Positions 1 through 26,149 of a stretch of 64,000 nt of DNA are shown one piece after another. Every line of letters begins with the position of its first letter. Positions within the stretch are counted from its first letter, which is position 1. Position numbers and translations under genes: made by a program. The notes below the pieces were generated by a model, which saw only the letters and a list, made by a program, of their open reading frames with translations, did no database searches and was not told where the DNA came from. Source of the stretch: Bdellovibrio sp. ZAP7. Its GTDB lineage: Bacteria; Bdellovibrionota; UBA1018; CAIMNF01. The DNA is taken from positions 154,471 through 218,470 of the forward strand of contig CAMCGZ010000001.1 in NCBI GenBank assembly GCA_945874535.1, read 5' to 3'.

Positions 1-2824
1 CGCCACCGAGAACATTGCCGCCGCCTCGGATTTCGAGGTCGAGCGAGGCGATTTGAAAGCCGCTCCCCAGTTCGACAAAGCGCTGGAGAGCGTCGAGTCG
101 CTGTTTGGCCTCATCTGTGAGTGTGCCCTCTTCACGCACCAGCAAGTAGGCATGGGCCCGGCGATGACTCCTGCCCACCCTTCCGCGGATCTGGTACAAC
201 TGGGCGAGTCCGAGTTGATCGGCCCGGTCGATCAGGATGGTCCCCGCATTCGGAACGTCGATTCCGGACTCGATGATGGTCGTACAAACGAGGACTTGAG
301 CGTGTCCTCTGTAAAACTCGAGCATTCTCTCCTCGATCTCGGTTTCCGACATCTGACCATGGGCCACGATCACTTTGCAGGAGGGGATCAGTTTTTGGAT
401 TTCGTTGGCGTGGTGTTGGATGCTCTGGACTTTATTATGAAGGTAAAACACCTGACCGCCCCGGGCGAGTTCGGTCTCGATTGCCCCTTTCACCAGCTCG
501 GCCGACCAGGCCGAAACATGGGTTTGAATCGGTTGGCGGTTGGTCGGTGGCGATTGAATCACGCTGATGTCTTTCAGTCCGGAAAGAGCCATGTTCAGAG
601 TCCGCGGAATCGGGGTGGCGGTCAAGGTGAGCGTGTGGGTGTCGGCCTGAATGGCTTTGATCTTCTCTTTGTGTTCGACACCGAATCGGTGTTCTTCATC
701 AACAATGAGCAAACCGAGATTCGCCCATCCGACGTCCTTGGAAAGCAGCCGATGGGTTCCGATCAGAATGTCGATCTTGCCACCCTGTAAGTCTTTCAAA
801 AGTGAGTTTTGCACAGCCTTGGTTTTGAATCTTGAAATCGATTCGATCCGCACCGCAAAATCACGCATCCGGTTGCGGAAGGACTGTTCGTGTTGAAATG
901 CAAGCAGAGTGGTGGGTACCAGTACGGCGACCTGATAACCGTTTTGAACCGCCTGAAAAGCAGCGCGGATTGCCACTTCGGTTTTACCGAATCCCACGTC
1001 ACCGCAGACCAGGCGGTCGAGCAGCTTGGCGGACTCGAGATCGTGGAGGATGTCACGGACGGCACTCATCTGACCTTCGGTTTCCTGGAATTCGAACTTC
1101 TCGCAAAAGTCGAAATACTCGTCCGAGGGCGGTTCGAATTTCGGGCCCTTCAGAAGCGCGCGTTTGGCATAGATCTCGACAAGATTGATGGCGAGTTTCC
1201 TCGCAGATTCCCGGGCCTTCTGTTTTGCCCGGTCAAACTGACCACTCCCGAGCCGGTCGAGTGCGCCGTCGCTCCCCCCCGAGGCATGCCGCTGAATGTT
1301 GTTCAGCCGGTAAACCGGAAGGTACAATTTATCGCCCGAAGAATACTCGATCAGAAGGTATTCCCCGGATGGTTGCCCTGCAGATCTCAGTTCCTGCATT
1401 CCGAGGTAACGCCCGACGCCGTGAAGAGAGTGAACCACCAGGTCGCCCGGTGCGAGGTCTTCGAGTCGCTGAAATGCCAATGCGGGATTTTTCTCGAACT
1501 TGGGGTGTCGGACTTTGGTGGCAACCTTGCCGGTCGACTCACCCGGAAAAATGGATCGTTCGGAGAGAATCACGGTCTTTCTGATAGGCAGAACCCCGGA
1601 TTCCCCCGGGTCCGTCGTCAAGAAAAAGAGTCCGGGACGGGAGGTGGCGTCCTTCAGGTGGTGGCGGATCCGCTCCTGATGAGAGGGGCCACGGGAACCG
1701 ATCCAGACCGTGAAACCATCCTCAAGCCATTCGACAATCTCCCGTTCTTGCACCCGGGTCGATTCCAGCCGGTCGACAATCTCGGAGTCGGGCTCCATCG
1801 ATCGGTTCATCAGAGTCCCGATCTGTGAATCGACATCCGGATAAAGCAGATCGAATGACGGGGTGATCCAGTGGCGATCGGAGTAACGGTTCTCCTCGCT
1901 CTTCAGCCATTGGATATGACTCCTCATGGAACTTTCGAACCTGCCACGATCATGGAGGAAGACGGGAGTGCCGGGCGGGAGGTGTTCTGCGAGGTGGCCG
2001 GTGACTCCGTGCACGAAGGGAATCCAGGTCCGGGCATGATCTGGCAAGAACCCGCTCCGGATGTTCTCAAATACGGGGTCGCGAATTTTTCTCGAAATCT
2101 GATGGTGGTCACAGAACTCTTTGATGCGCTCCAACACCGGGGAGAGCTGTCTCCAAGGGAGTAGGACTTCTTCCGCCGGCCCGGCTTCGATGCGGGTCCG
2201 GCCCGTTCCATCGCCCCCCAGGGTCCTCTGCGTTTCGGGATGGAAAAACCGGATGCTCTCGGGAACGGTATCGAAAAACCCCACTCTGAGCGGGCGGTCA
2301 TATTCCGGCGGAAAGAAATCGAGAATTTCACCCCGGAATGCGAATTGCCCGGGCTCCTGTACCAAATCGGAAGGGACATAGCCGAGCTCCCTCATCCGAG
2401 CCCTGAGCTCATCGCGGGTCCCCGCGTCGGTGTCACATTCGAGCAACAGTGTCGCCCGCTCCCGAACCGAGTCGGGCAGGGTGGGTTGGAGCCAGGACGC
2501 CGCTGTTCCGATCAGGATGACTGTTCGATCCGAAGAATGGAGCAATGAGAGAGTCCGGAGTCTTGCTGTTTTCTGGGAAAGCGAGGGCGACACGGGAGAA
2601 AATGGAGCGTGTTCGGATGCGGTCCAGAGAGCGATCTCCACCCCGGGCCCGCCAGTGTCCGCCTCGGCAAAGCTCCTCAGGAGTTCGGCGAACTCATCCG
2701 CTTGCTCCTGTTCCGGAAACAAATGAACCCGGACCCGGGACGACTGCTCCCGGGCACGGAACCATGCGGTGGCGGCTCTTGCGAGAGGCGTTGATAAATT
2801 TATCTCGCTCGGACCGGCAGGCAT
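1..2824 (-). CDS. mfd: Transcription-repair coupling factor Mfd (C-terminus cut off by window edge)
   Basis: Mfd is a DNA translocase that removes RNA polymerase stalled at DNA lesions and recruits UvrA for excision repair. The reading frame is open from an ATG at 2824 to the window edge, about 941 residues of a family that is usually near 1150, so the last part of the helicase and the C-terminal domain lie outside. The helicase motifs are clear: Walker A in LVCGDVGFGKTE (Asp609 onward) and the DEAD-type box DEEHR at about residues 709-713, within LLIVDEEHRFGVEH. The N-terminal third carries the UvrB-homology region expected of Mfd. The start has a strong ribosome binding site (GAAGGAGAAGGGG) just upstream. 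The gene is divergent from the small membrane gene at 2866, leaving 41 bases for two start regions. Confidence 0.95.
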   Translation of the reverse strand, partial: MPAGPSEINLSTPLARAATAWFRAREQSSRVRVHLFPEQEQADEFAELLRSFAEADTGGPGVEIALWTASEHAPFSPVSPSLSQKTARLRTLSLLHSSDRTVILIGTAASWLQPTLPDSVRERATLLLECDTDAGTRDELRARMRELGYVPSDLVQEPGQFAFRGEILDFFPPEYDRPLRVGFFDTVPESIRFFHPETQRTLGGDGTGRTRIEAGPAEEVLLPWRQLSPVLERIKEFCDHHQISRKIRDPVFENIRSGFLPDHARTWIPFVHGVTGHLAEHLPPGTPVFLHDRGRFESSMRSHIQWLKSEENRYSDRHWITPSFDLLYPDVDSQIGTLMNRSMEPDSEIVDRLESTRVQEREIVEWLEDGFTVWIGSRGPSHQERIRHHLKDATSRPGLFFLTTDPGESGVLPIRKTVILSERSIFPGESTGKVATKVRHPKFEKNPALAFQRLEDLAPGDLVVHSLHGVGRYLGMQELRSAGQPSGEYLLIEYSSGDKLYLPVYRLNNIQRHASGGSDGALDRLGSGQFDRAKQKARESARKLAINLVEIYAKRALLKGPKFEPPSDEYFDFCEKFEFQETEGQMSAVRDILHDLESAKLLDRLVCGDVGFGKTEVAIRAAFQAVQNGYQVAVLVPTTLLAFQHEQSFRNRMRDFAVRIESISRFKTKAVQNSLLKDLQGGKIDILIGTHRLLSKDVGWANLGLLIVDEEHRFGVEHKEKIKAIQADTHTLTLTATPIPRTLNMALSGLKDISVIQSPPTNRQPIQTHVSAWSAELVKGAIETELARGGQVFYLHNKVQSIQHHANEIQKLIPSCKVIVAHGQMSETEIEERMLEFYRGHAQVLVCTTIIESGIDVPNAGTILIDRADQLGLAQLYQIRGRVGRSHRRAHAYLLVREEGTLTDEAKQRLDALQRFVELGSGFQIASLDLEIRGGGNVLGG

Positions 2825-2865: not shown

Positions 2866-3090
2866 ATGGATCCTAGGAAGATTTTACCCTTTGAAATCAA
2901 GACGACACAGTTGACCCAGGTCATTCTTTACCTGTGGATTCCCCTTTTGGTGGCGCTTCCCCTATTCATTTCAGGGGAGATCAGGATCATCCCGTATTTA
3001 ATCGCGATTCTGGTGATGATGGTAGTGTTTTTGTCATTCTTCCTTGCGACCCAGCACTATCTTAAAAAGGACTCGGATGACGAAGTTTAA
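2866..3090 (+). CDS. Small membrane protein of unknown function, first gene of the complex I-like cluster
   Basis: This 74-residue protein is not recognised. Residues about 18-38 and 42-62 form two hydrophobic stretches long enough to cross the membrane, and the C-terminus is highly charged (KKDSDDEV). It could occupy the place that NuoA takes in a normal nuo operon, but NuoA has three spans and no NuoA motif is visible. Its end overlaps the start of the NuoB-like gene by 14 bases, which implies translational coupling and a shared function with that cluster. It is divergent from mfd. Confidence 0.6.
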   Translation: MDPRKILPFEIKTTQLTQVILYLWIPLLVALPLFISGEIRIIPYLIAILVMMVVFLSFFLATQHYLKKDSDDEV

Positions 3091-3454
3091 GCCCGCTCTC
3101 AGATATGTGCGTGTGGGACTCACCTGTTGTGGCGATGACTGGATCCAGACAGAATCGAGCCGCTATGACCTCGAGCGCCTCGGGTGTGTCGCGTCGGAGC
3201 GCGCGGAGGATGCCAACCTCCTGGTCGTACAGGGTACGCTCAATAGCGCCTTGTTCGAAGAGGCCGTGGCTCACTTCGAGCGGATGAGGGTGCCGAAGTA
3301 TGTCATTGCGATCGGCACTTGTGCGTGCGGGGGGGGCTTGTTCCCCACTCCGGGTGACTCAAGGCTTCCGGTCAATATCTATGTGACCGGATGCCCGCCC
3401 CGACCCGAGGCGATCATGAACGGAATTCTCTCACTCCGGGAGGTTCAGGCGTGA
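3077..3454 (+). CDS. NuoB-like iron-sulphur subunit (paralogue of complex I subunit B / group 4 hydrogenase small subunit)
   Basis: A 125-residue protein of the NuoB / HyfI / EchC family, which binds one [4Fe-4S] cluster equivalent to N2 of complex I. All four expected ligands are present: the tandem pair Cys17-Cys18 in LTCCGDDW, Cys82 in IGTCACGGG and Cys106 in TGCPPRPE. The start is taken as the ATG at 3077, which overlaps the previous gene by 14 bases. The protein is shorter than the canonical NuoB at 9820 (166 residues). It overlaps the NuoD-like gene by four bases. Because its partner at 3451 lacks NiFe cysteines, an active hydrogenase is unlikely; it may instead be an electron-transfer or structural subunit of an unusual membrane complex. 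Confidence 0.85.
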   Translation: MTKFKPALRYVRVGLTCCGDDWIQTESSRYDLERLGCVASERAEDANLLVVQGTLNSALFEEAVAHFERMRVPKYVIAIGTCACGGGLFPTPGDSRLPVNIYVTGCPPRPEAIMNGILSLREVQA

Positions 3455-4458
3455 TCCAGGAAACCATCGAAATCGGACCGATTCATGAATGGCTGCCCGG
3501 GCCGATGAAGCTGAGCCTCGGTATGAGCGGTGACCGGATTGTCCGGGTGGACGCCCGTTTCGGGTATGCTTCCAGAGACATCGAGCGTCAAGCGATCGGT
3601 CAGCACCATCGGCGGGCCCAATTGACCGTGGGTCGTGTGGAGCCGGAGAGCGCGCTCATTCTGGATCGGGTTTTCAGCGAAGCGGTCGAGAAGATCTCGG
3701 GCATGGAGGCGGGGGAACGTGTCCGGTGGATACGTGATATCACCTCGAGTCTCTCTGAGTTGAACTTCCAGCTGAAGTACCTTGCCAATATGTCGAGACG
3801 CCTCGGAGTGAAAATCCTGTTTCATTCCATTCTGAAACACCGCGAATCCTTGCTCGATCTTCTCGAGCTTCTTTCGGGTTCGAGATACGGCTACTACTAT
3901 CTGATTCCCGGCGGAGCCCGCTATGACATCACCGAGGGGTTTCAGGAAAGACTGGACGCTTGGAGCAGGAATTTCGTGGAGGACTACCCCAGAATTGAAG
4001 CCCTGTTCCGTTGGACCCACGTGTTCCAGAACCGGATGAAAAATCTGGGCCAGATTCTGGATCGGGGCGAGTACGGATTCGTCAGTGAAGCGTCGATCGA
4101 GACCACGCGTTACGGATTGGTGAGTCACGTGGAGTCTCGCCTCATCTATTCGCTCGAGAACTGCAAGGCCATGGCAATCGAGTTGAGAGACCTCTTGAAC
4201 CTGCGTCCGTCGGGAGACCACCTTTCAGTTCCGGGGATTCGCGAGGGGAAGTTGTCGCACGAACGTGTGACGCTTCGTGGAGCGTGGGGGATCACTCTCG
4301 GTCTCGATTCCGCTGGCAAAGTGACCGCTCTTGAGTTGCGCTCGCCCTCTTCATCGATCGTGAGTGCGATCGGTCCCGCACTCGAGGGTGAATCACTTGA
4401 GGATCTGGCTGTGGTGCTTGAGAGTCTCTCGTTCTCGATACCGGAGATCGACCGATGA
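3451..4458 (+). CDS. NuoD-like subunit lacking quinone-site and NiFe residues
   Basis: A 335-residue protein that aligns over its N-terminus with NuoD and the large subunit of group 4 hydrogenases: GPIHEWLPGPMKLSL matches the GPxHPxxHGxxR segment and RFGYASRDIERQA matches the GYxHRGxEK segment. The second histidine of the first motif, which contacts quinone in complex I, is a proline here, and the tyrosine motif MDYL is replaced by VEPESAL. There is no CxxC pair at either end, so NiFe binding is excluded. The GTG start at 3451 shares GTGA with the stop of the NuoB-like gene. The next gene again overlaps by four bases. The protein probably forms a connecting module with its NuoB-like neighbour. 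Confidence 0.78.
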   Translation: MIQETIEIGPIHEWLPGPMKLSLGMSGDRIVRVDARFGYASRDIERQAIGQHHRRAQLTVGRVEPESALILDRVFSEAVEKISGMEAGERVRWIRDITSSLSELNFQLKYLANMSRRLGVKILFHSILKHRESLLDLLELLSGSRYGYYYLIPGGARYDITEGFQERLDAWSRNFVEDYPRIEALFRWTHVFQNRMKNLGQILDRGEYGFVSEASIETTRYGLVSHVESRLIYSLENCKAMAIELRDLLNLRPSGDHLSVPGIREGKLSHERVTLRGAWGITLGLDSAGKVTALELRSPSSSIVSAIGPALEGESLEDLAVVLESLSFSIPEIDR

Positions 4459-5264
4459 TTGAAGCATTGATGGTCCTGCTGTCGGGAGTCGCCTCCGTTT
4501 TTCCAGTATCGTTTCTGATGTTTTCCATCAGCGAGAGAATGATCGCCCGGCATGAGTCGCGCGTCGGCAAGCAGGTCGGATGGGCAGGATTCATCTGGCA
4601 AACCTGGGTCGATGCCCGCACCGAAATGGGAGCGCAAACTGACCGGGGTGTCTGGTTGTTGCATCTGTTCCAGTTGTCGATGGTTTTTTTGCTCGGAATC
4701 CGTGTCGAATACCTGATGTTCATCCATGTCGCCCTGATCGGATTCCTGCTTGCTTGGATGTCCCTCGGCACCAATCGGGTGGTCTCAAGAATCCAGGCTG
4801 ATGGACACCAGGTTCGTTTCGCCGTCGCCGGGGCAATCGCCCTTCTTTGTCTGTTTGTCTGTTTCACCTATTCCAAAACCACAGATATGAGCGGAGTGAT
4901 TTGGAGTCCAGTATTGCTCGGTTTTGTGATCCCTTTCCAGTTGTGCGGTATGATCCTATTCGGAGAACATCCGTTTCGGGGCATGGGCGAGCGAACCGGA
5001 TGGCTTCATTCGGCCAGGTTCTATGTGTGGTCCTTGATCACTGCCAGGCTTTTCCTAGGCGGTGGAGATTGGTTTTTTGACATCCACCTGAAGGCGGCTG
5101 CACTTTATCTCGGCTCCAGAATCTTCGCGATCTACTTTCCGGGCTTCCACCAGAAGGATCTTCTTCGGATTTCGATCATTTATCTTTTCCCGATCACGGG
5201 AGCGCTCTGGCTGATTGCGATGCTCTGGTATGCGGTGAGTGGCGTGGGAGGTTCGGGTGTTTAA
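4455..5264 (+). CDS. NuoH-like membrane subunit, divergent
   Basis: A 269-residue polytopic membrane protein with about seven or eight hydrophobic spans. Near the N-terminus ERMIARHESRVGKQVGW matches the family signature seen in the true NuoH at 15317 (ERRGSALMQNRLGPNRMG). Farther on, GEHPFRGMGERTGW lies where the normal NuoH has the acidic loop ETNRLPFDLPEGESE. Most acidic residues of that loop, which line the quinone pocket, are gone. The protein is about 90 residues shorter than the canonical one. It overlaps both the NuoD-like gene and the ferredoxin-like gene. Its likely role is the membrane anchor of the cluster's peripheral arm. The assignment rests on motif position and gene order. 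Confidence 0.72.
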   Translation: MIEALMVLLSGVASVFPVSFLMFSISERMIARHESRVGKQVGWAGFIWQTWVDARTEMGAQTDRGVWLLHLFQLSMVFLLGIRVEYLMFIHVALIGFLLAWMSLGTNRVVSRIQADGHQVRFAVAGAIALLCLFVCFTYSKTTDMSGVIWSPVLLGFVIPFQLCGMILFGEHPFRGMGERTGWLHSARFYVWSLITARLFLGGGDWFFDIHLKAAALYLGSRIFAIYFPGFHQKDLLRISIIYLFPITGALWLIAMLWYAVSGVGGSGV

Positions 5265-5652
5265 CAAGATCATCGGCCATTTTTTGAATCGAAATGAAAT
5301 GCGGAAGATCGACACCGAATTCTATCCCGACCCGGTTTCCTCGCGCGGGAAAGACGACTTTCCGGCACGGGCGCGGGGGCTTCTTTTCAATGAGATCGAA
5401 AAGTGCACCGGGTGCGGAGATTGTGCCAAGGTCTGCCCCTCCTCTTGTATCGAGGTCGAGGCGAGCATCAATGCCCGAAATAATCGACCCTGGGTTTCCC
5501 GATTCGAGATCGATTTTTCGAAGTGTGTGTTTTGCGGCCTGTGTGTAGAGGTTTGTGAGCCCAACTCGTTGGTCCAGACCAAGGAAGTTCAACCCGCGGT
5601 TTTCGATCCCAAAGACCTCAAGATGAGTTTCGGCAGGGGGGATCTGGGATGA
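5257..5652 (+). CDS. NuoI-like ferredoxin subunit, two [4Fe-4S] clusters
   Basis: A 131-residue protein with two complete CxxCxxCxxxC sets: Cys50, 53, 56 and 60 in CTGCGDCAKVCP, and Cys90, 93, 96 and 100 in CVFCGLCVEVCE. This is the NuoI / HyfH / EchF pattern, and it would carry electrons toward the NuoB-like cluster. The second motif ends in Glu rather than the usual Pro. The GTG at 5257 is chosen as start because GGGAGG stands just before it and the codon overlaps the stop of the NuoH-like gene; an earlier GTG at 5239 is possible. The last four bases overlap the next gene. Redox function looks intact even though its neighbours are degenerate. Confidence 0.85.
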   Translation: MFNKIIGHFLNRNEMRKIDTEFYPDPVSSRGKDDFPARARGLLFNEIEKCTGCGDCAKVCPSSCIEVEASINARNNRPWVSRFEIDFSKCVFCGLCVEVCEPNSLVQTKEVQPAVFDPKDLKMSFGRGDLG

Positions 5653-5999
5653 GGGTTTTCGATCTGGTCTTCCTCCTGTCGGTTTCGGGCTTCCTTGCCA
5701 CCCGCTCACCCTTTTCGGGAGTGGTGGTCCTGGTTCTGGGCTTGTTGATCCGGATTCAGCTGTTCAGGATGCGGCTCTTGCTCGGGGGGGGCTCAGAGAG
5801 TGCTCCGGCCGGCAGGCGTGTCCGCGCGCTGATCCTGGCTCTCGGCTTGTCTGCCACCCTTCTGCCCTTGGTGCAGGAATCCGCGGGTCCGAGCCCGGTC
5901 GAAATCGAATACAGCCACTACTTGCCCGTGGTGATTCTGATTTCTTTGCTCTCTGCTGTGATGATGGCGGGTCTTGCCGTAGAAAAGAGGAAGCGATGA
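5649..5999 (+). CDS. Small membrane protein in the NuoJ position
   Basis: A 116-residue protein with about three hydrophobic segments and a basic end (VEKRKR). The N-terminal stretch FLATRSPFSGVVVLVLGLL resembles the first span of NuoJ (compare FKKNPVSSAFALVLVFF in the NuoJ at 16852), but the rest is too divergent to assign by eye. The best argument is position: it sits between the NuoI-like and NuoK-like genes exactly as nuoJ does downstream. ATGA overlaps link it to both neighbours. It may be a truncated NuoJ or an unrelated small subunit. Confidence 0.6.
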   Translation: MRVFDLVFLLSVSGFLATRSPFSGVVVLVLGLLIRIQLFRMRLLLGGGSESAPAGRRVRALILALGLSATLLPLVQESAGPSPVEIEYSHYLPVVILISLLSAVMMAGLAVEKRKR

Positions 6000-7067: not shown

Positions 7068-7070
7068 GTC

Positions 7071-8054
7071 ATGCTTGAGTTCAGTCTTCCATCAGCGCTG
7101 GTCGCCCTGTCCTGGTTGCCCTGTCTACCACCGGCCAGTTGGCTTTCGGTTCCCTTTGCAGCCGCGATCTTCTTTTCCAAGTCGGTTCCGGTCAGTTTGC
7201 TGTTTCTCTTGACCCTTCAAGTGATCGGATTTCTCCAGTCCACGCGTGGCTCGAGGCGTGCAGACCATCCCTTGGTCCAGAAGCACCACTTCATTTCGGT
7301 GGCGGGGATTTTTCTTGCGATCTTCGGAGCCTCACTCGGAGATCATCCTCAAGCGAAAATCCTCATTTTCGGAGGTCTGATTCTAACCATTCCCACCGGC
7401 GCGCATTTGTTCTTTTTCAGTCGCTTCTATGAACGGCAGACTCTTGCATCATTCCTCGGGTCAGTGATCATTCCGGCTCTTTCCGGTATCGAGATCCTTT
7501 TAAAAATCAGAGGCGAAATGAAGGCCGAAAGCGGCCAGCTTTGGGATGTGGGACTGTCCGTTGTGGGTTTGTTCACCTACATTTACGGGAGTTTGATGGC
7601 GGTTTTGCGACTCAGAATGAAGTCTTCGATCATTCACCTCGCTCTTGCGCAAATCGGTCTCGCCCTTTTCATACTGGTTATCGATCACGAAACCCTCGGC
7701 AGGACCACGCTCTGGGCATTGTCGGTCGCGGCAATCGGAGGGGCGGCTCTACTTTCATTGGGTGATCAGATGGGAGAGCGCTTCGGGGCTTTTTCGAGGG
7801 TTGCGTTCGTCGCACTACCCGGAATGGCGGGATTCACCGCCTACTTTTATTCGATGAAAATGGCGATCTCCATGAATCCTGTCTGGATCGCCGCACTCCT
7901 GGCTGGCTATCTGCTCCAGGTGATCACTCTGGTGGCCATCCCGGGGTACGGGTTCTCGAGCCCCGAGCGGATCACGACGATCCGGTTCTGGATGGTGGTT
8001 TTGGTTCAAGTTGCAGCCGGTGTCGGATTCTTCCTCCTCGGAGGTGTCAAGTGA
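7071..8054 (+). CDS. Antiporter-like membrane protein in the NuoM position, truncated
   Basis: A 327-residue protein with about nine or ten hydrophobic spans. The segment VLRLRMKSSIIHLALAQIGL resembles the span-8 region of NuoM and NuoN, where DLKRLIAYSSISHLG is typical, so this is probably a shortened Mrp-antiporter-family protein. The lysine of that segment is kept, but the span-5 glutamate motif and the HxWLP-type region are not visible. Canonical NuoM, at 19522, has 487 residues. It starts four bases after the preceding gene and shares GTGA with the next. A non-pumping structural role is likely. Confidence 0.62.
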   Translation: MLEFSLPSALVALSWLPCLPPASWLSVPFAAAIFFSKSVPVSLLFLLTLQVIGFLQSTRGSRRADHPLVQKHHFISVAGIFLAIFGASLGDHPQAKILIFGGLILTIPTGAHLFFFSRFYERQTLASFLGSVIIPALSGIEILLKIRGEMKAESGQLWDVGLSVVGLFTYIYGSLMAVLRLRMKSSIIHLALAQIGLALFILVIDHETLGRTTLWALSVAAIGGAALLSLGDQMGERFGAFSRVAFVALPGMAGFTAYFYSMKMAISMNPVWIAALLAGYLLQVITLVAIPGYGFSSPERITTIRFWMVVLVQVAAGVGFFLLGGVK

Positions 8055-9415
8055 CGATGTTGAACTGGCTGCCGGAACTCGCCCTTCTGGGGATGTTGTT
8101 TGTCACCCTTGTTTTGATCAACTTCAGGGTGTTGACAGTTCGTTCGATCGCGCCTGTGGCAGCAATCGCCTCTTCGGTGGTGCTGGTCTACTTTTCCTTG
8201 CGAACCGATCTCGCCTATTTCGAATCTCCGCTCCAAGTCCTCCATTCTGACTCACTGTCGTATTTCGGAAGATTGCTTTCGCTGGTGATGCTCTCGGTGT
8301 TTTCGATGGGGTTTTACTTCCACGGTTCACTCAGCGTGAGAGACAAGCAACTCACCACCCTGTTCACCCTGTTTCTTTCGGCCTTTGTTTCGCTTCTCCT
8401 CCAGGCGAATCATTTGGTGTTGTTTCTCGGGTCCGCGGTCGGAATCTACTTCTGTTCTACCAGTCTGATTCTTGTGGAGTCCGGCAAAGATCAAGCATGG
8501 GTGCGCCTCATCCGTCAAAGGAGCATGATCCTGGGTAGCTGGATTGCGGTGTTATCTCTCTTGATCGTCCTTTCGAGTTTCTTGTCGGGCTCGTTATTTC
8601 TGGGTGACTGGATCAACGGATTGGATTCTTATTCGGGTTCCGAGGTCGGGATCTGGCTCCCCGCCATTCTGATTCTCCTCGGCTCGGTGATCTTGCTCGA
8701 GGCGATCCCCCATCCCGGCAGGGCCCCGGTGGGTGTCGGGGTTCTCTATTTCGGTATGCATCTGATCGTTCAGGTGTTCTGGCTCAGGGTCGGGGTTCCT
8801 TTCTTCAGTAAGTCTTCTTTTCTGGCCAAACAACAGGCACAACTCCTGATTGCCCTGATGTTCGGGGCCTTCACGCTCCGGTACGCCTATCAGGCAGTAC
8901 GGGCGAGAGAACACCATCGGTGGTTCAGTGCGGCACTCCCGGTCCTGCTTGGACTCGGCTTCTTTTTGTGTCTCCTACCGGCCGATAAGATCTTGCCCGC
9001 ATTTTTCGCCATCTCCCTTTCACTCCTTCTGACCATCGCACTCTCGTCTCACGCTTTCCTCGACGAGAACTACCGTAAGAAAGGCGTCGTCACCGGAGCT
9101 TTGATTGCGCTGATGGGCGTTCCCCCCCTGGTTCTGGGAGACCAGATTTATCGACTCATCCACGACATCGTCACTGGAGGAAATGGGTTGGCAGGCATCC
9201 TGATGATCGTTTCCTGGTTCGCCCTGGTTCTTGCGGTCATCCGAATGATGGGTAAGGTACTCTTGGCAAGAAACGGCGCGAAAGAACTTCGCAAGATCCA
9301 GCCCGGAGAGGCGTTCTTCATCGGGCTTTATCTTCTCTGTGTCATCGGTTTGACACTCTTGCGCCCGAGCCTGTTCTCCCTATTAAAAGAGCATCCTCTC
9401 CTGAATTTGTGGTAA
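8051..9415 (+). CDS. NuoN-like antiporter-family protein lacking the pump glutamate and lysine
   Basis: A 454-residue protein with about twelve or more spans. It aligns with the NuoN at 20987: the region LFLGSAVGIYFCS matches LFIALEVMSLPAY, and LVESGKDQAWVRLIRQRSM matches the GFRRNDSRSNEAAIKYF segment. The span-5 glutamate that is essential for pumping in complex I (Glu134 of the NuoN here) is replaced by Ala129, and the FLFKVAAAPFHFW lysine motif is absent. The start is the GTG at 8051 that overlaps the previous stop; ATG 8057 is an alternative. It is the last gene of the cluster, 38 bases before nuoA. A structural, non-translocating membrane subunit is the best reading. Confidence 0.7.
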   Translation: MTMLNWLPELALLGMLFVTLVLINFRVLTVRSIAPVAAIASSVVLVYFSLRTDLAYFESPLQVLHSDSLSYFGRLLSLVMLSVFSMGFYFHGSLSVRDKQLTTLFTLFLSAFVSLLLQANHLVLFLGSAVGIYFCSTSLILVESGKDQAWVRLIRQRSMILGSWIAVLSLLIVLSSFLSGSLFLGDWINGLDSYSGSEVGIWLPAILILLGSVILLEAIPHPGRAPVGVGVLYFGMHLIVQVFWLRVGVPFFSKSSFLAKQQAQLLIALMFGAFTLRYAYQAVRAREHHRWFSAALPVLLGLGFFLCLLPADKILPAFFAISLSLLLTIALSSHAFLDENYRKKGVVTGALIALMGVPPLVLGDQIYRLIHDIVTGGNGLAGILMIVSWFALVLAVIRMMGKVLLARNGAKELRKIQPGEAFFIGLYLLCVIGLTLLRPSLFSLLKEHPLLNLW

Positions 9416-9453: not shown

Positions 9454-9816
9454 ATGGAATACCTTCCTGTACTGGTCATGATGGCCGCAGGGGTGTGCAT
9501 CGGCGGAGCCGTCCTCCTCATCACAACCTGGCTTGGGCCGAAGTTGCCCAACAAAACAAAAGATTCACCGATCGAGTGCGGTGTCGGTGACTCCGGACCG
9601 GCAAAAAAACATCGTGTCTCTGTGCGATTCTATCTCGTGGCCATCCTCTTTCTTCTGTTCGACATCGAAACGGTGTTCTTCTATCCGTGGGCGGTCGTTT
9701 ACAAACGCTTTTTGACCACGGGTGAATTCATTCTCATTGAAATGATGGTTTTTGTTTTCATACTTCTCGTCGGATACATCTACGTGATCCGTCGTGGTGC
9801 ATTGGAGTGGGAGTAA
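9454..9816 (+). CDS. nuoA: NADH-quinone oxidoreductase subunit A
   Basis: NuoA is a three-span membrane subunit of complex I next to the quinone cavity. This 120-residue protein has the family signature loop SPIECGVGDSG followed by VSVRFYLVAILFLLFDIETVF, whose acidic residues are conserved in NuoA/ND3. It has normal length and a good ribosome binding site (AAGGAAAGGG) 7 bases before the ATG. It opens the complete nuoA-N set, and nuoB follows after three bases. Because only 38 bases separate it from the complex I-like cluster, both may share one transcript. Confidence 0.96.
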   Translation: MEYLPVLVMMAAGVCIGGAVLLITTWLGPKLPNKTKDSPIECGVGDSGPAKKHRVSVRFYLVAILFLLFDIETVFFYPWAVVYKRFLTTGEFILIEMMVFVFILLVGYIYVIRRGALEWE

Positions 9817-9819
9817 ATC

Positions 9820-10320
9820 ATGAGCAAGGACGGGTCTTCCGATTTTTTCACGACCAAACTGGATGACATGGTCAACTGGGCCAGGAAACACTCTCTGTTC
9901 CCTCTTCCGTTCGGAACCAGTTGTTGCGGGATTGAGCTGATGTCGACCCTGGCCTCGGGTTACGACATGGCCCGCTTCGGAGCCGAGGTGGTCCGGTTTT
10001 CTCCAAGGCAGAGCGATCTCCTCATTGTCGCCGGTATCGTCAATCTCAAGATGGCGCCGGTTCTCCGGAATATCTATGACCAGATGGCCGACCCGAAGTG
10101 GGTGATTTCGATGGGTGCTTGTGCCTCATCCGGCGGGATCTTCAATGTCTACAGCGTGACTCAGGGAATCGACACCGTTCTTCCGGTGGACGTGTATGTT
10201 CCGGGTTGTCCTCCTGCCCCGGAGGGGCTTCTGAACGCACTATTGCGACTCAAAGAGATGATCGCAGCGGGTGAAACCCACTCCCAGCGACGGGAGCGGG
10301 CCCTGAGAGGAGAAGTGTGA
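9820..10320 (+). CDS. nuoB: NADH-quinone oxidoreductase subunit B
   Basis: NuoB carries cluster N2, the last electron carrier before quinone in complex I. The four ligands are visible: adjacent cysteines in [10 protein letters not shown], one in [10 protein letters not shown] and one in PGCPPAPE. Length (166 residues) is normal. Its stop overlaps the nuoC start. Compared with the shorter NuoB-like protein at 3077 it retains the N-terminal helix and the arginine-rich tail. Confidence 0.97.
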
Positions 10321-10880
10321 TGGACATCAACACGCCTGTAAAAACCATCTACGGCGGACATTACGACAAGTATCTCCCGGAGTGGACGATGGTGGTCGAG
10401 GCCCTGCAATCCGAGTTCGGTGATTTCATCGAAGAAATCTTGATGCCTAGAATTGCGGCGACGGATGTTCCCATCATCCAGATCAGGAAGTCCGGAATGA
10501 TGGCGGTGCTCTCCCGTCTCAAAGAGGGTCTGGGCTTCTCTTTCCTGACAGACTACACGGCAACGGACGAAGAATCGGAGCCGAGGTTCCGACTCGTTCT
10601 TCAGCTGATGAATCCCACCACCAAGGCCCGAATGAGGGTGAAGATCAGACTCTCCGAGCAGGAGACCTCACCCACGCTGATCCCCCTTTGGGAGGGGGCG
10701 AATTGGGCTGAGCGCGAAATTTACGACATGTTCGGGATCCGTTTCGAGGGTCACCCCGACCTCCGGAGAATTCTGATGGACATGCGCTGGGAGGGGCACC
10801 CTCTCCGTAAAGATTACCCTCTCAGGGGCTATCAGGTATTCCTGACCCCGGAGCCCCTTGATCCGGAGTTGCTGAAATGA
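10320..10880 (+). CDS. nuoC: NADH-quinone oxidoreductase subunit C
   Basis: NuoC is a peripheral-arm subunit that braces NuoD. The protein has 186 residues and carries the family signature region EREIYDMFGIRFEGHPDLRR, followed by GHPLRKDYPLRGY. It is separate from nuoD here, not fused as in enterobacteria. The ATG at 10320 is preferred because GAGAGGAGAAG lies 7 bases upstream; a GTG at 10317 is also in frame. The end overlaps nuoD by four bases. Confidence 0.96.
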   Translation: MDINTPVKTIYGGHYDKYLPEWTMVVEALQSEFGDFIEEILMPRIAATDVPIIQIRKSGMMAVLSRLKEGLGFSFLTDYTATDEESEPRFRLVLQLMNPTTKARMRVKIRLSEQETSPTLIPLWEGANWAEREIYDMFGIRFEGHPDLRRILMDMRWEGHPLRKDYPLRGYQVFLTPEPLDPELLK

Positions 10881-12157
10881 GTGATTCAAATCCGAAAAAT
10901 TTCAAGACCGATCTCCCCCTTGACGTCGCCCGTTGGGGCATTCCGTCGACCTACGATGTCTCGGTGAAACGTGACACTGACGATATTTTCGAGGACTCGA
11001 AAGTTCTCGTGAACATCGGACCGACTCACCCGGCGATGCACGGAGCATTCCGTTGCATGGCTCGGTTGAACGGCGAAATCATCGAAAAATCATACTGCGA
11101 GTTCGGATATACCCATCGTGCGAAGGAAAAGCTCGGCGAAAACCGGACCTATCACCAGTTCGTCGTTTATACCGATCGTCTGAACTACTGTTCCGCCCTG
11201 ATCAACAACGTCACTTATGCCATGGCGGTGGAGCGACTGATGGGGATCGAAGTGCCGGAACGCGCGGTTTGGATCCGGATGATGTGTGCCGAGCTGGCCC
11301 GGGTGATCGACCACCTCATTTGTGTCGGTATCAACGCGGTCGATCTCGGAGCATTCTCCTTTTTCCTTTACGGTTATCATCAACGCGAGAAAGCCTACAC
11401 GCTGATCGAGAAGCTGTGCGGAGCCCGCTTGACCACCTCTTACACCCGGATCGGAGGCCTCATGGCCGATGCTCCGGAGGGTTGGGAGAAAGAGGTCAAG
11501 GAATGGGTGAAAGAAACCCGCGCTGTTGTCGATGAAATGGACCGGCTCCTCACCGAGAACCGGATCTGGCTCAAGCGGACCAAGGGTGTTGCGATCATGA
11601 ATCGCGAAGACTGCCTCAAGTACAGCTTCACGGGCCCGAACGCCCGTGCAGCAGGGGTCGACATCGACCTCCGTCGCGATCAGCCTTGCATGTTTTATGA
11701 TCAGGTCGATTTCGACGTTCCAGTCGCGCAAACCGGTGACGTGTTCGACCGCTATTACGTCCGCCTCGAGGAGGTGCGCCAGTCCCTGAACATCCTCACC
11801 CAGTGTGCGGATCGTATCAAGCGAGGACCGATCTGGGCTGACGACAAGAGAACCCGCATTCCCGAGAAGGACCAGGTTTACAACACGATGGAGGGTCTCA
11901 TCCATCACTTCAAATTCTTCATGAACGGATTCAACGTTCCGGCAGGAGAGGCGTATACGTCCTTTGAGGCCGCCAATGGAGAACTTGGATTCTACATTGT
12001 CAGCAAAGGCGGCCCTGCTGCGCACCGGATGCGGATTCGCGGGCCTTCCTTCTGGCACTATCAGGGGCTCGACCCCATGATTCGCGGCGAATACATTGCG
12101 GATCTGGTGGCGGCTCTCGGAAGCATCAATGTCATTGCAGGGGAGCTCGATCGCTGA
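10877..12157 (+). CDS. nuoD: NADH-quinone oxidoreductase subunit D
   Basis: NuoD forms the quinone-reduction site with NuoB and NuoH. This 426-residue protein shows the diagnostic GPTHPAMHGAFR, with both histidines, then YTHRAKEKLGE and the tyrosine segment DRLNYCSALINN. The C-terminus keeps RIRGPSFWHYQGLDPMIRG and ends in GELDR, as usual. This intact set of quinone-site residues is what the NuoD-like protein at 3451 has lost. It overlaps nuoC by four bases and nuoE by one. Confidence 0.97.
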   Translation: MSDSNPKNFKTDLPLDVARWGIPSTYDVSVKRDTDDIFEDSKVLVNIGPTHPAMHGAFRCMARLNGEIIEKSYCEFGYTHRAKEKLGENRTYHQFVVYTDRLNYCSALINNVTYAMAVERLMGIEVPERAVWIRMMCAELARVIDHLICVGINAVDLGAFSFFLYGYHQREKAYTLIEKLCGARLTTSYTRIGGLMADAPEGWEKEVKEWVKETRAVVDEMDRLLTENRIWLKRTKGVAIMNREDCLKYSFTGPNARAAGVDIDLRRDQPCMFYDQVDFDVPVAQTGDVFDRYYVRLEEVRQSLNILTQCADRIKRGPIWADDKRTRIPEKDQVYNTMEGLIHHFKFFMNGFNVPAGEAYTSFEAANGELGFYIVSKGGPAAHRMRIRGPSFWHYQGLDPMIRGEYIADLVAALGSINVIAGELDR

Positions 12158-12639
12158 TGGAAAAGCAGCTTTCTCAAAAGTTTTATGAAGCCATGAAGGA
12201 CCTCGAGCCGAGGTATCCCAACAAAAAGGCGCTGATTCTGCCGGCCTTGCATCAGGCTCAGGCGGAGTGCGGCTGGCTTCCGCCGGAAGTTCTTGCCGAA
12301 GTGGCGGCTTACATCGGTGTCCATGAGGCGCAAATTCGCGAGGTTGCCAGCTTTTACACCATGTACAACCTGAAACCGGTGGGAAAAAACCATCTCCGGA
12401 TCTGTACCAATGTGGCCTGTTGCCTGAGGGGTGCGGACGAGCTGATGAGTTATGCCGAGCGCAAGCTCGGTATTGCCTGCGGTGAGACGACCCCGGACGG
12501 GATGTTCACTCTTTCGGAAGAGGAGTGTCTGGGGGCTTGCACCACCGCCCCCGTGATGATGGCGAACGACGACTACGTCGAGAACCTGGACATCAACGGC
12601 CTGAATGATTGGATTGAGAGGGCTAAAAATGAGCGCTGA
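12157..12639 (+). CDS. nuoE: NADH-quinone oxidoreductase subunit E
   Basis: NuoE belongs to the NADH-oxidising tip of complex I and holds the [2Fe-2S] cluster N1a. In this 160-residue protein the four ligands appear as CTNVAC, with Cys-x4-Cys spacing, and EECLGAC farther on. Length is normal. The ATG overlaps the nuoD stop (TGATG), and the end overlaps nuoF by 11 bases. Confidence 0.96.
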   Translation: MEKQLSQKFYEAMKDLEPRYPNKKALILPALHQAQAECGWLPPEVLAEVAAYIGVHEAQIREVASFYTMYNLKPVGKNHLRICTNVACCLRGADELMSYAERKLGIACGETTPDGMFTLSEEECLGACTTAPVMMANDDYVENLDINGLNDWIERAKNER

Positions 12640-13909
12640 GCAAAACACACTGTTCATCCAGCACTTCTGGAAAGACTCGAACCGGACTCTCGAATACTAC
12701 CTGAAAAACATGAACGGATACGAGGCGGCGAAAAAGGTATTCGCCGGAATGACTCCGGACCAGGTGATCGATGAGGTCAAAAAGGCGAACATTCGTGGAC
12801 GCGGAGGCGCCGGATTTCCAATGGGGATGAAGTGGAGCTTCATTCCTAAAAATTCCGATAAACCCAAATATCTGGTTTGCAACGCCGATGAATCCGAGCC
12901 GGGCACCTGCAAGGACCGCCAGATCATGCGCTATACACCGCACGTCCTGATCGAGGGGTTGCTCATCGGGTCTTTCGCCATCGGATGTCATCATGCGTAC
13001 GTATACATCCGGGGCGAGTATGTCAGGGAAGCCGAGTTGCTGAAGGCGGCGATCGACGAAGCGCGCGCGGCCGGCTATCTCGGAAAGAACATCTTCGGAT
13101 CCGGCTACGATCTGGAAATCACGGTCCACCGTGGCGCCGGTGCATACATTTGCGGAGAGGAAACGGGCCTTCTGAACTCTTTGGAGGGTAAACGGGGAGA
13201 GCCCCGCGTGAAGCCCCCTTTTCCGGCTGTATCGGGTGCATTCTCCTGCCCGACCGCGGTGAATAATGTCGAATCGATCGCCAATGTCCCTCACATCATC
13301 CGGATGGGTGGCGAGGCATTCGCCGGCCTGGGCAAGATCGACAAGTCGGGAGGAACCCGGCTCATTTCACTTTCCGGCCACGTACAAAAGCCCGGTGTCT
13401 ACGAAATGCAGGCGGGCTCCATGACTCTGCGCCAAATCATCGATCAATTCGGAGGCGGATTATTGAATGGCCGTCGCCTCAAGGCCGTTATTCCCGGGGG
13501 ATCCTCCTCTCCGGTCCTGACTGCGGATGAGATCGACGTGGTTTACGATGTCGAACCGCTCATGAAAATCGGAACCATGATGGGATCTGCCGCAATCATG
13601 GTGATCAACGAGGATACGGACATGGTGAAGCTCCTCCTCAGGATCACAAAGTTCTATGCCCATGAATCCTGCGGACAGTGCACCCCTTGTCGCGAAGGTT
13701 GTCACTGGATGGAGTCCATCCTCCACAAGATTCTTCATGGCGAGGCGAGACCCGCGGACATCGATCTTCTGGTCGATGTGGCAGGGAATATCGGTGGAAA
13801 GACCTTGTGTGCTCTAGGAGATGCAGCCGCGATGCCTGTCCAGAGTTTCCTGAAAAAGTTCCGGCCTGAATTCGAGGCCTATGTAAAGGGGCTAAAGCGT
13901 CATGCCTAA
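12629..13909 (+). CDS. nuoF: NADH-quinone oxidoreductase subunit F
   Basis: NuoF binds NADH, FMN and a [4Fe-4S] cluster (N3) and is the electron entry point of complex I. The 426-residue protein shows the glycine-rich nucleotide segment RGRGGAGFPMGMKW, the FMN-associated GAGAYICGEETGLLNSLEG, and the cluster ligands in ESCGQCTPCREG with a fourth cysteine in TLCALGD. The ATG at 12629 is chosen over an in-frame codon at 12605 because it gives the normal N-terminus and is preceded by GAGAGG. It overlaps nuoG by eight bases. Confidence 0.97.
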   Translation: MSAEQNTLFIQHFWKDSNRTLEYYLKNMNGYEAAKKVFAGMTPDQVIDEVKKANIRGRGGAGFPMGMKWSFIPKNSDKPKYLVCNADESEPGTCKDRQIMRYTPHVLIEGLLIGSFAIGCHHAYVYIRGEYVREAELLKAAIDEARAAGYLGKNIFGSGYDLEITVHRGAGAYICGEETGLLNSLEGKRGEPRVKPPFPAVSGAFSCPTAVNNVESIANVPHIIRMGGEAFAGLGKIDKSGGTRLISLSGHVQKPGVYEMQAGSMTLRQIIDQFGGGLLNGRRLKAVIPGGSSSPVLTADEIDVVYDVEPLMKIGTMMGSAAIMVINEDTDMVKLLLRITKFYAHESCGQCTPCREGCHWMESILHKILHGEARPADIDLLVDVAGNIGGKTLCALGDAAAMPVQSFLKKFRPEFEAYVKGLKRHA

Positions 13910-15320
13910 GTGTTTCGTTGATGGAAAGGAAGTGGAGTTCGCACTGGGCGAGAATCTCGTCAAGGTGGCCAAGCGTGCCGGGGTCGAGATTCCCGTATTC
14001 TGTTATCACCCGGGATTGTCCGTCGTCGCCCAGTGCCGCATGTGCTACGTCGAAGTCGAAAAAATGCCCAAGCTCCAGACAGCTTGTTCAACCATGGCTG
14101 CAGAGGGCATGGTGGTGAAAACCCAGAGTGAAGCCGTAAAAAAGGGAAGACAGGGAACGATGGAGTTCCTGCTCTTGAATCACCCGCTCGACTGCCCCAT
14201 TTGCGACAAGGCCGGTGAGTGCGATCTCCAGGACAATTCTTTCGGGCATGGTAGTGCGAATATGCGGCACAGCGAGGAACGCAGAACCTACGTCGATGTC
14301 GACATGGGTTCCGTGATCCAGAAGAACATGAATCGCTGCATTCACTGCACCCGCTGCATTCGCTTCGGCGACGAAATTGCCGGAATCCATGAAATGGTGG
14401 CCATCAAGCGCGGAAACAACATCGATATCACCACGATCGACGGAAAGCAGTTGAAGACCGAATACGCCGGGAACTACTCCGACATCTGTCCTACCGGGTC
14501 CCTGACCTTGAAGGACTTCCGGTTCAAAAAACGCGCATGGATGCTGAAAAAGACTGCAACCGTGTGCGAGGGTTGCTCCAAGGGCTGCAACATGGAGATT
14601 CAGCACGAAGGAAACGTGGTTTATCGCTGTGTCCCCCGCGAGAACCTCGAGATCAACAAGTACTGGATGTGTGATGAAGGCCGGTTCAATTACCGTTATA
14701 CCCAGGATGAGACGAGAGTGGTCGATCCGACTCTGCGTGGTGCCGAGGGTGCAAAACAGGCCTCCTGGCAGGATGTGGTGGCCTCGATAGAAGTTAAAAT
14801 CCGGAACGGAGATGTCCTGTTTCTGGTCGGAACCGATCTCACCAACGAGGAACTGTCCGCCATCCGTGAGGCGGCATCCGCCTTGCGATCGGGTATCAAG
14901 ATCCGCACTTTCGGGAACGCGGATGTCACGAAATCCTCGGAAGACGGACCCGCAGACAACATCCTGAAGATGAAAAGCAAAACGGGGAATCTTCTCGGGG
15001 CGGAGAAGCTCGGTCTCGAGCCCCTCACTGGAGAGGCCAAGGCCGAGACGGTTGTTGTTTTCCGCGGCGGCCGGGCCGTGTTGCCTAAAATCGATTCGAA
15101 GTGGACTGCCGGGATCGGTGTTTTCAACCGTGAGGAGTCAGCAGGGTTCGACGGAGTGCTCCCTGGTTTGGCCTTCACCGAGAAAGAGGGAACCCTGGTC
15201 AACCATGCAGGGTTCGAACAACGCCTGGCCAGGGCGGTGCGCCCCAGGGGGGGCTGCAAGCCTGTTTCAGAGATCCTGATGTTGCTCTTGAACACCAAGT
15301 CAAAGGCAGGGCAAGCATGA
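13902..15320 (+). CDS. nuoG: NADH-quinone oxidoreductase subunit G, short form
   Basis: NuoG carries several iron-sulphur clusters of the peripheral arm. Visible ligand sets are the [2Fe-2S] N1b cysteines (FCYHPGLSVVAQCRMC), the His/Cys N4-type site CPICDKAGEC, the N5 site CIHCTRC with CPTGS, and an extra set CEGCSKGC followed 27 residues later by Cys, which matches cluster N7. At 472 residues it is much shorter than the common 680-900, because the molybdopterin-like domain is reduced to about 230 residues. There is no sign of a frameshift and nuoH follows with a four-base overlap, so the short form is probably native. Confidence 0.93.
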   Translation: MPKCFVDGKEVEFALGENLVKVAKRAGVEIPVFCYHPGLSVVAQCRMCYVEVEKMPKLQTACSTMAAEGMVVKTQSEAVKKGRQGTMEFLLLNHPLDCPICDKAGECDLQDNSFGHGSANMRHSEERRTYVDVDMGSVIQKNMNRCIHCTRCIRFGDEIAGIHEMVAIKRGNNIDITTIDGKQLKTEYAGNYSDICPTGSLTLKDFRFKKRAWMLKKTATVCEGCSKGCNMEIQHEGNVVYRCVPRENLEINKYWMCDEGRFNYRYTQDETRVVDPTLRGAEGAKQASWQDVVASIEVKIRNGDVLFLVGTDLTNEELSAIREAASALRSGIKIRTFGNADVTKSSEDGPADNILKMKSKTGNLLGAEKLGLEPLTGEAKAETVVVFRGGRAVLPKIDSKWTAGIGVFNREESAGFDGVLPGLAFTEKEGTLVNHAGFEQRLARAVRPRGGCKPVSEILMLLLNTKSKAGQA

Positions 15321-16408
15321 GCTCCATAGAAACCACACTGATGTTCGTGAAGATCGCCATCGTTCTGATGGGTCTTCTCCTGACTGTGCCGATCATGCTT
15401 TTTGTCGAGAGGCGGGGATCGGCACTCATGCAGAATCGTCTCGGCCCGAACCGTATGGGTCCATTCGGTTTGTTCCAGGCCGCATGCGACGTGGTGAAGT
15501 TCATCTTCAAGGAAGATCGGGCTCCCGGGCACGTGAATCGCTTTTACTACACGATCGCTCCCTGGATCGCAGTGATCCCGGCTTTCATGACCTTCGCAGT
15601 AATTCCCTTTGCCGGGTCTCTGCAAATGGATGGGTTCGAGGCAAAATTCCTCATCGCCAATCTCGATGTCGGTGTCCTGTACTGTTTCAGTATCGCCTCA
15701 CTCGGAGTCTACGGGATCATCATGGCGGGTTGGGCCTCCAATAACAAGTATTCGCTCCTTGGGAGTCTCAGGAGTTCGGCTCAAATGATCAGTTATGAGC
15801 TCACTTTGGGACTATCCATTGTTGGCCTCATGATGGTGTTCCAATCGGTCAATTTAGGAGAGATTGCCGCAGCCCAAGGAGAAACGCTGATTCAACTCGG
15901 GCCGATTGCGGTTCCCAAGTGGGGGGTGTTCATTCAGCCTCTCGGCTTCGTGCTTTTCCTGGTATCCATGTTCGCAGAAACAAACAGGCTTCCGTTCGAC
16001 CTTCCCGAGGGAGAGTCTGAGCTGATCGCCGGATACCATCTAGAATACGGATCGATGCGTTTCGCCCTGTTCATGATGGCGGAATTCGTCAACATGGCGG
16101 TCGCTTCCGGACTCATCACCACACTCTTTTTCGGTGGTTGGCAGCTTCTTCCCGGCATGGGATTCCTTGCGACCCAAGTCGAGCAGCTCGGAATCCTGCC
16201 GGCTGGTGGCTGGGTTCAGGTTCTGTTCCAGGGGCTTTCCTTCGTCATGAAGGTGGCATTCTTCATGTGGTTCTTCGTATGGGTTCGCTGGACGCTTCCG
16301 CGGTTTCGCTTCGACCAGCTCATGAACCTGGGGTGGAAGGTCCTGTTTCCGTTGGGTCTGGTGAATGTTCTCGTCACAGGCCTGCTCATCTACAAGGGAG
16401 TGCTCTGA
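15317..16408 (+). CDS. nuoH: NADH-quinone oxidoreductase subunit H
   Basis: NuoH is the membrane subunit that joins the peripheral arm to the pumping arm and forms the quinone channel. The 363-residue protein has about eight spans, the N-terminal signature QNRLGPNRMGPFGLFQAACD and the acidic loop AETNRLPFDLPEGESELIAG. Length is normal. It overlaps nuoG by four bases and nuoI follows without a gap. It is the reference against which the divergent NuoH-like protein at 4455 was judged. Confidence 0.97.
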   Translation: MSSIETTLMFVKIAIVLMGLLLTVPIMLFVERRGSALMQNRLGPNRMGPFGLFQAACDVVKFIFKEDRAPGHVNRFYYTIAPWIAVIPAFMTFAVIPFAGSLQMDGFEAKFLIANLDVGVLYCFSIASLGVYGIIMAGWASNNKYSLLGSLRSSAQMISYELTLGLSIVGLMMVFQSVNLGEIAAAQGETLIQLGPIAVPKWGVFIQPLGFVLFLVSMFAETNRLPFDLPEGESELIAGYHLEYGSMRFALFMMAEFVNMAVASGLITTLFFGGWQLLPGMGFLATQVEQLGILPAGGWVQVLFQGLSFVMKVAFFMWFFVWVRWTLPRFRFDQLMNLGWKVLFPLGLVNVLVTGLLIYKGVL

Positions 16409-16852
16409 ATGTTGGCGCAAAGAAAACCCAGTTTATTGAACCGTCTGTACCTGATCGAGGTGGTACGAGGCCTGGCCATTACCATGAAAAACTTCTTGTT
16501 CCACAAGAAGGTGACCTTGCAATTTCCGGAACAGCGCAGGGATTATTCAGGCCGCTACCGTGGTCAGCACTATATCAAATCCGTGAACGGGGTTGAGAAC
16601 TGCACTGCTTGCATGCTCTGTCCCACCGTTTGTCCGGCTGAATGCATCCACATTGTTGCAGGCGAGCGCGAGGACAAGGAAAAGTATCCGATAAAGTTCG
16701 AGATCGACTCACTCCGGTGTTGCTTCTGCGGGATGTGCGAAGAGGCGTGTCCGAAGGATGCCATCAAACTTTCAAATATCTACGAAATGAGCCAGAAGAA
16801 CCGGACGGTCTACGAGAAGGATTTCCTACTCGAACAGAGAGGGAATAAGTGA
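16409..16852 (+). CDS. nuoI: NADH-quinone oxidoreductase subunit I
   Basis: NuoI carries clusters N6a and N6b. Two complete [4Fe-4S] motifs are present, CTACMLCPTVCP and CCFCGMCEEACP, in a protein of 147 residues. The N-terminus has the amphipathic helix that lies on the membrane. It starts directly after the nuoH stop and overlaps nuoJ by one base. Confidence 0.96.
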   Translation: MLAQRKPSLLNRLYLIEVVRGLAITMKNFLFHKKVTLQFPEQRRDYSGRYRGQHYIKSVNGVENCTACMLCPTVCPAECIHIVAGEREDKEKYPIKFEIDSLRCCFCGMCEEACPKDAIKLSNIYEMSQKNRTVYEKDFLLEQRGNK

Positions 16853-17699: not shown

Positions 17700-17702
17700 C
17701 CC

Positions 17703-19520: not shown

Positions 19521-19521
19521 T

Positions 19522-20985: not shown

Positions 20986-20986
20986 T

Positions 20987-22459: not shown

Positions 22460-26149
<3,690 letters not shown>

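Follow-up and report, generated by a model that had tools for sequence, protein, structure and literature searches.

Within the window, by which we mean the whole stretch of 64,000 nucleotides analysed here, ten genes (X-B'-D'-H'-I'-m1-m2-m3-m4-m5; positions 2866-9415, + strand) overlap or nearly touch one another, lie divergent from mfd and end 38 nt ahead of a complete canonical nuoA-N operon. The features are as follows:

2..2824, - strand: mfd
2866..3089, + strand: X, 74 aa with two predicted transmembrane (TM) helices, the first gene of the run, its open reading frame overlapping the start of B'
3077..3454, + strand: B', NuoB-like (Pfam PF01058, 1.8e-17), ATG start at 3077
3451..4458, + strand: D', NuoD-like (PF00346, 5.5e-18), GTG start at 3451
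4455..5264, + strand: H', truncated NuoH-like membrane anchor, matched by profile via the H' of relatives
5239..5652, + strand: I', NuoI-like (TIGR01971, 8e-20), with two complete 4Fe-4S motifs (eight Cys)
5649..5999, + strand: m1, small membrane protein in the NuoJ' position, assigned by position and about three TM helices
5996..6238, + strand: m2, small membrane protein in the NuoK' position, assigned by position and three predicted TM helices
6225..7067, + strand: m3, membrane protein in the NuoL' position, assigned by position and weak profile similarity to L'
7071..8054, + strand: m4, antiporter-like remnant in the NuoM' position (Proton_antipo_M, 7.6e-4; weak hhalign matches to L', N' and M')
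8051..9415, + strand: m5, NuoN'-like (hhalign to N', E 1.7e-7 over 443 columns)
9454..22453, + strand: canonical nuoA-nuoN, its NuoD with the normal His/Tyr site (GPTHPAMH, DRLNYCSA)

H' itself has no Pfam match and was linked to NuoH in two steps by hhalign, the window H' to the H' of relatives (E 6e-16) and the latter to NuoH (2e-24). Identification of X, m1, m2 and m3 as NuoA, NuoJ, NuoK and NuoL by profile was rejected because hhalign gave no usable match, and their places in the scheme follow from position only. X occupies the site of nuoA' in relatives and has no profile match to NuoA; no homologue outside the genus was found by profile. Its identity across nine same-genus genomes is 46-100%, reaching 100% in the nearest relative, and it is among the slowest-evolving genes of the operon. 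With 280 aa, m3 is far shorter than its counterparts in other families (about 640 aa). No equivalent of NuoC, NuoE, NuoF or NuoG and no gene for an electron donor or acceptor is encoded in 2866-9415; E, F and G occur in the canonical operon only, and it is possible that the paralogue shares this NADH module with canonical complex I. The gap between the paralogous genes and nuoA is conserved across the order (8-207 nt, usually 8-117 nt), and this spacing makes it likely that the two operons are transcribed together. A promoter scan gave no sigma-70 match. Directly downstream of nuoN (22460-26149), a large protein with TPR repeats and extended (PE)n and (PK)n tracts is encoded.

B' contains cysteines at positions 17, 18, 37, 82, 84 and 106, of which Cys17, Cys18, Cys82 and Cys106 occupy, in the alignment, the columns that hold the N2 ligands in all canonical NuoB sequences compared. 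An earlier note, made from the window sequence alone, had assigned these four to N2, and the assignment stands: no recovered NuoB-type sequence has lost any of them where it spans the site, and one truncated record shows the last two only. The eight cysteines of I' (the N6a/N6b ligands) are likewise kept in all full-length relatives. B' and I' together therefore carry the CC...C...C pattern of NuoB and the two 4Fe-4S motifs of NuoI that mark complex I, and with all these ligands intact throughout the order, the sequences support the note's view that electrons can probably reach N2. Two positions after the CC pair, all canonical copies and those of family f3 have Ile or Val, and f8 has Leu; in f1, in f2 and in most of the other families, the D'-bearing genomes have Asp, Asn or rarely Ser there, and the window B' has Asp20. 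In the window's genus, the loop between Cys82 and Cys106 is shortened.

The GTG start of D' is preceded by GGGAGG and overlaps the B' stop codon. When D' is aligned by HMM with Nqo4 of Thermus (2fug chain 4, E 4e-79), its Pro16 (codon 3496-3498) lies opposite His38 and D' Pro65 (3643-3645) opposite Tyr87, the two residues that serve as quinone head-group ligands and likely proton donors (PMC8119997, PMC11228991, PMC7684303). The Tyr is described as strictly conserved and as binding the Q head group (PMC8119997). The earlier note had read GPIHEWLP as replacing GPTHPAMH, which is correct for the second His, the quinone ligand, and needs refinement for the first, non-liganding His, which D' keeps. 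Its reading of VEPESAL in place of the tyrosine motif agrees with the position of Pro65, and directly after the lost Tyr stands a new conserved acid, Glu66 (3646-3648). As the note had also stated, no CxxC is present in the alignment at either [NiFe] position of D'. A [NiFe]-type relative from the same order (L098, on contig 14 of genome G034) served as a positive control; its ERICGIC motif is visible in the alignment, so a [NiFe] CxxC in D' would have been exposed. We also looked for a His/Tyr or Cys pair that a corrected N-terminus might restore, the finding that the note had named as telling against it, and found none, as no upstream in-frame extension of D' alters the motif. D' thus has neither the His38/Tyr87 pair of complex I nor the two CxxC motifs of group 4 [NiFe] hydrogenases, and quinone or proton reduction by the known mechanisms, which the note had considered unsupported, appears equally so here.

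Beyond what the note had described, the pair belongs to a whole paralogous complex co-linear with a complete nuo operon, its losses extend through the order, and most known proton-pumping residues are lost from the paralogue as well. In the alignment, H' is without the ETNRxPFDLPExESEL acidic loop (TMH5-6 of NuoH), and K' has Gln where NuoK has its TM glutamate. Of the antiporter-like subunits, M' has Arg for the TM7 Lys, N' mostly has Gln, and L' has lost it. The TM12 Lys is kept in most N' copies of f2, and the window's genus has lost all these antiporter residues, m5 being without the TM5 Glu, the TM7 Lys and the TM12 Lys. These single-residue readings can be relied on in H', M' and N' and at the TM7 Lys of L' (anchored by an FP motif) and are weak elsewhere, the alignments of X, m1, m2, m3 and the remainder of L' to canonical subunits being too weak for single residues. 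The NuoH acidic loop of the E channel and the antiporter Lys/Glu residues of complex I are accordingly not found in the paralogue.

The superfamily placement of D' was assessed by profile, by structure model and by tree. Profile E-values were 4e-79 for Nqo4, 5e-74 for NdhH, 1e-58 for MbsL, 3e-57 for MbhL and 7e-40 for HycE; membership of the group 4 hydrogenases or of the archaeal MBS was rejected on sequence, as their scores fall below those of Nqo4 and NdhH. The AF2 model (pLDDT 90.7) matched NuoD and MbsL (6u8y_L) in Foldseek with a TM-score of 0.90 each. A quick tree, which is unrooted, has long D' branches and no Ehr references and was used solely for the separation of canonical NuoD from D', set the canonical sequences (37 rows, support 100) apart from D', with the f3 and f8 copies between. 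Sequence and model together place D' in the complex I branch and not with the hydrogenases.

Among known systems, the 11-subunit complex I without NuoEFG (NDH-1/NdhH, Fpo-like) is similar in its gene complement, since the order-wide set is A'B'C'D'H'I'J'K'L'M'N', in the best D' matches (Nqo4/NdhH) and in the retained N6a/N6b/N2 ligands. The paralogue differs from it in having lost His38, Tyr87, the NuoH acidic loop, the NuoK Glu and the antiporter TM7 Lys; the window's genus, moreover, lacks C' and has smaller membrane subunits. MBS (Mbx/Mbs of Pyrococcus) has no equivalent of Nqo4 H38, of Y87 or of MbhL E21, and its proximal cluster is where polysulfide is reduced; the enzyme retains two NiFe cysteines, a three-Cys proximal cluster and intact proton pumps (PMC7684303). 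D' shares with it the loss of all three residues, the absence of a [NiFe] site and a similar large-subunit fold. In contrast to MBS, B' has four cysteines in the complex I spacing with its adjacent CC pair, the pump residues are lost, and the D' sequence is nearer to Nqo4 than to MbsL. Ehr, defined by missing Ni/Fe ligands, an unknown acceptor and a membrane arm (PMC6349859), resembles the paralogue in the first and last of these; compared by description, Ehr complexes are group 4 hydrogenase relatives with Mrp-like subunits, whereas D' is nearer to complex I in profile and fold and the pump residues are lost. A second complex-I-like gene set also occurs in f10, f11, f14 and f15 of the same phylum, but the second NuoDs of these families keep both residues (GPQHP[SA]THG and DRxDY) and with them a normal quinone site. 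We found no described second complex I in Bdellovibrio in the open-access literature.

D' is present in 9 of the 11 same-genus genomes at 42-93% identity (93% in L033, 85% in L034). In the other two, G004 and G007 (loci L043 and L044), the operon is cleanly absent and mfd lies next to nuoA, which makes them natural deletion genomes. Relocation of the operon was rejected, as searches for I' and D' elsewhere in both genomes gave canonical copies only, and the operon is thus dispensable there. Other families of the order carry a full-size A'B'C'D'H'I'J'K'L'M'N' set at the same place, without E, F and G, in which B', C', D', H', J', K', M' and N' have Pfam support. For L', which Pfam does not match, the model (mean pLDDT 73.6) shows a lateral helix of 65 residues and the beta-hairpin of NuoL, and Foldseek matches it to NuoL/NdhF. 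In a search of 369 genomes of the phylum, high-scoring D' sequences were confined to the window's own order.

Every canonical NuoD examined has the His/Tyr pair. D' is without both residues at the same columns in 44 genomes of the order, a count that takes in the L008 copy and the window D' itself and that rules out an oddity of one MAG. The His position is occupied by Pro, rarely Ser, Gln or Gly, and the Tyr position by Pro, rarely Ser, Ala or Thr. Glu or Asp stands directly after the lost Tyr in all 44, and B' mostly has Asp or Asn two residues after the CC pair. D' Glu66 and, in most copies, B' Asp20 are, from sequence, our best candidates for a replacement site beside N2. Four f3 genomes and one f8 genome, representing one neighbouring family and one other family of the class, have lost the His and kept the Tyr, which suggests that the quinone-site residues changed stepwise. 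A more degraded D' was seen at L100 (G095, f7), about 10 kb upstream of the canonical nuoD; the beta1-beta2 loop with GPxH is gone from it and the Tyr is still aligned.

Selection was estimated against L033 and L034, where dN/dS was 0.02-0.12 for all ten genes with synonymous sites near saturation; the paralogue genes of the window contain no stop codons. Within the genus, I', B' and X evolve most slowly (mean identity 74-77%), and D', H' and the other membrane subunits faster (48-66%). The low dN/dS and this identity pattern indicate that function is maintained, with the strongest constraint on the iron-sulfur part and X. Because 44 genomes share the same altered columns under purifying selection, the residue losses are not attributable to chance or decay.

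The explanation that we prefer, and to which as a whole we give about an even chance (probability roughly 0.5), takes 2866-9415 to encode a second, divergent complex I composed of B', D', H', I' and six small or shortened membrane proteins. As read from the genes, it is most likely a co-transcribed complex I paralogue in which electrons would reach N2 and neither proton pumping nor quinone reduction of a known type would take place, and it probably does a different job from canonical complex I. The paralogue would have originated within the complex I branch, losing first His38 and then Tyr87, and would have gained carboxylates, D' Glu66 at the position following the lost Tyr and usually a second one beside N2 (Asp/Asn, as in B' Asp20). 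It would also have lost the NuoH acidic loop, the glutamates of NuoK and key lysines in the antiporter-like subunits, and would have kept the iron-sulfur ligands throughout. The product may be a membrane-anchored redox module in which I' takes electrons from a soluble donor or from the shared NADH module and passes them to N2. There, a non-quinone or differently bound acceptor would be reduced, or the redox state of N2 would be used for signalling or gating, with no protons pumped by the known route. Directly observed are the gene content, the residue states with the new acids, selection, distribution and operon position; electron flow, the acceptor and the lack of pumping are deduced from them. 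Several points weigh against this reading: the conserved Fe-S ligands could serve structure and not electron flow, some chamber of the complex might still take up an altered quinone, the operon contains no donor or acceptor gene, and G004 and G007 are without the whole operon. A fuller version, which we put forward tentatively, is that most of one Bdellovibrio-related order possesses a previously unrecognised machine of the complex I superfamily, whose quinone site has given way to a pocket of new carboxylates at N2 (D' Glu66, B' Asp20) and whose pumps are dismantled, so that electrons from I' would reach N2 and then pass to a new kind of acceptor or serve as a redox signal to the co-expressed true complex I, which they would control.

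Another reading, possible in our judgement but rather unlikely, is that the paralogous proteins carry out no electron turnover of their own and instead work with the true complex I, whether by assembling with it, by regulating or stabilising it or as part of a mixed complex. Their constant place directly upstream of nuoA (usually 8-117 nt away), the absence of E, F and G genes of their own, the missing catalytic and pump residues and the dispensability of the operon in G004 and G007, where nuo is kept, would suit such a partner; conservation of all Fe-S ligands in subunits that are among the slowest-evolving is not obviously needed for structure alone, and the new conserved acids around N2 suggest adaptation and not loss. 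The same acids could instead have replaced His38 and Tyr87 in proton donation, in which case the site would be a rebuilt reductase of quinone or another hydrophobic substrate. We regard this as doubtful: it agrees with the confidently modelled D' fold and with the co-occurrence of the acids with His/Tyr loss (the f3 and f8 intermediates still having Tyr), but it would dispense with the Tyr described as strictly conserved and as binding the Q head group (PMC8119997), with the NuoH TMH5-6 acidic loop and, in the window's genus, with part of the NuoB Cys3-Cys4 loop.

Direct transfer of N2 electrons to a sulfur or disulfide substrate, with no participation of amino acids, would follow the precedent of MBS, which has lost H38, Y87 and E21 (PMC7684303) and whose MbsL is structurally close to D' (6u8y_L, TM-score 0.90). 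This seems to us very improbable for the paralogue, since MBS needs a site-differentiated three-Cys cluster where B' has four cysteines with an adjacent CC pair, and since MBS keeps two proton pumps whose corresponding lysines are gone here. The precedent nevertheless bears on the earlier note's claim that a new terminal acceptor is required, which is not established and is too strong, because MBS without His38 and Tyr87 reduces another substrate; a non-catalytic or regulatory role or an altered quinone site is also possible. That the genes are a decaying nuo duplicate, with pseudogenes in progress, might be suspected from the shrinking membrane subunits in the window's genus and the clean loss in two congeners, but we give it hardly any credence, as it is contradicted by the dN/dS of 0.02-0.12 at saturated synonymous sites, by the absence of stop codons and by the persistence of the operon across the order.

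For complex I, it is debated in what way the E channel and the antiporter lysines are linked to the chemistry at N2, His38 and Tyr87. If the second, divergent complex I is what we take it to be, it would represent a natural dissection of that enzyme, in which the chemistry site and the pump residues were removed together and the electron wire was kept, and the intermediates of neighbouring families (Tyr kept, His lost) would extend it into a series. It also offers a testable candidate enzyme beside a normal complex I in a group related to predatory bacteria. What is new here is a co-operonic complex I paralogue without the quinone site through most of one bacterial order; under automatic annotation its genes would simply pass as nuoB, nuoD and nuoI, and the cell would seem to have two complex Is.

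Further complex I relatives were recovered in the same searches. In several genomes of the order, a third complex-I-like NuoD with a normal His/Tyr site (GPQHPSTHG, DRLDYLSA) was found, at L056 and L078 (G014), L058 (G034), L114, L115, L116 and L117; in G014 and G034 its cluster adjoins genes resembling 2-oxoacid:ferredoxin oxidoreductase, which suggests a ferredoxin-fed complex I. The L098 large subunit used above as a control is NuoD-like and, by its ERICGIC motif, of the group 4 [NiFe] hydrogenase type, and its genome (G034) also has D'. In f11, which belongs to another class of the phylum, L074-L077 are A-H-J-K-L-M-N clusters, that is, a membrane arm without B, C, D and I, and L075 and L076 also carry parts of a second membrane-arm set; the second NuoD of f11 lies on a different contig from these clusters and keeps His/Tyr.
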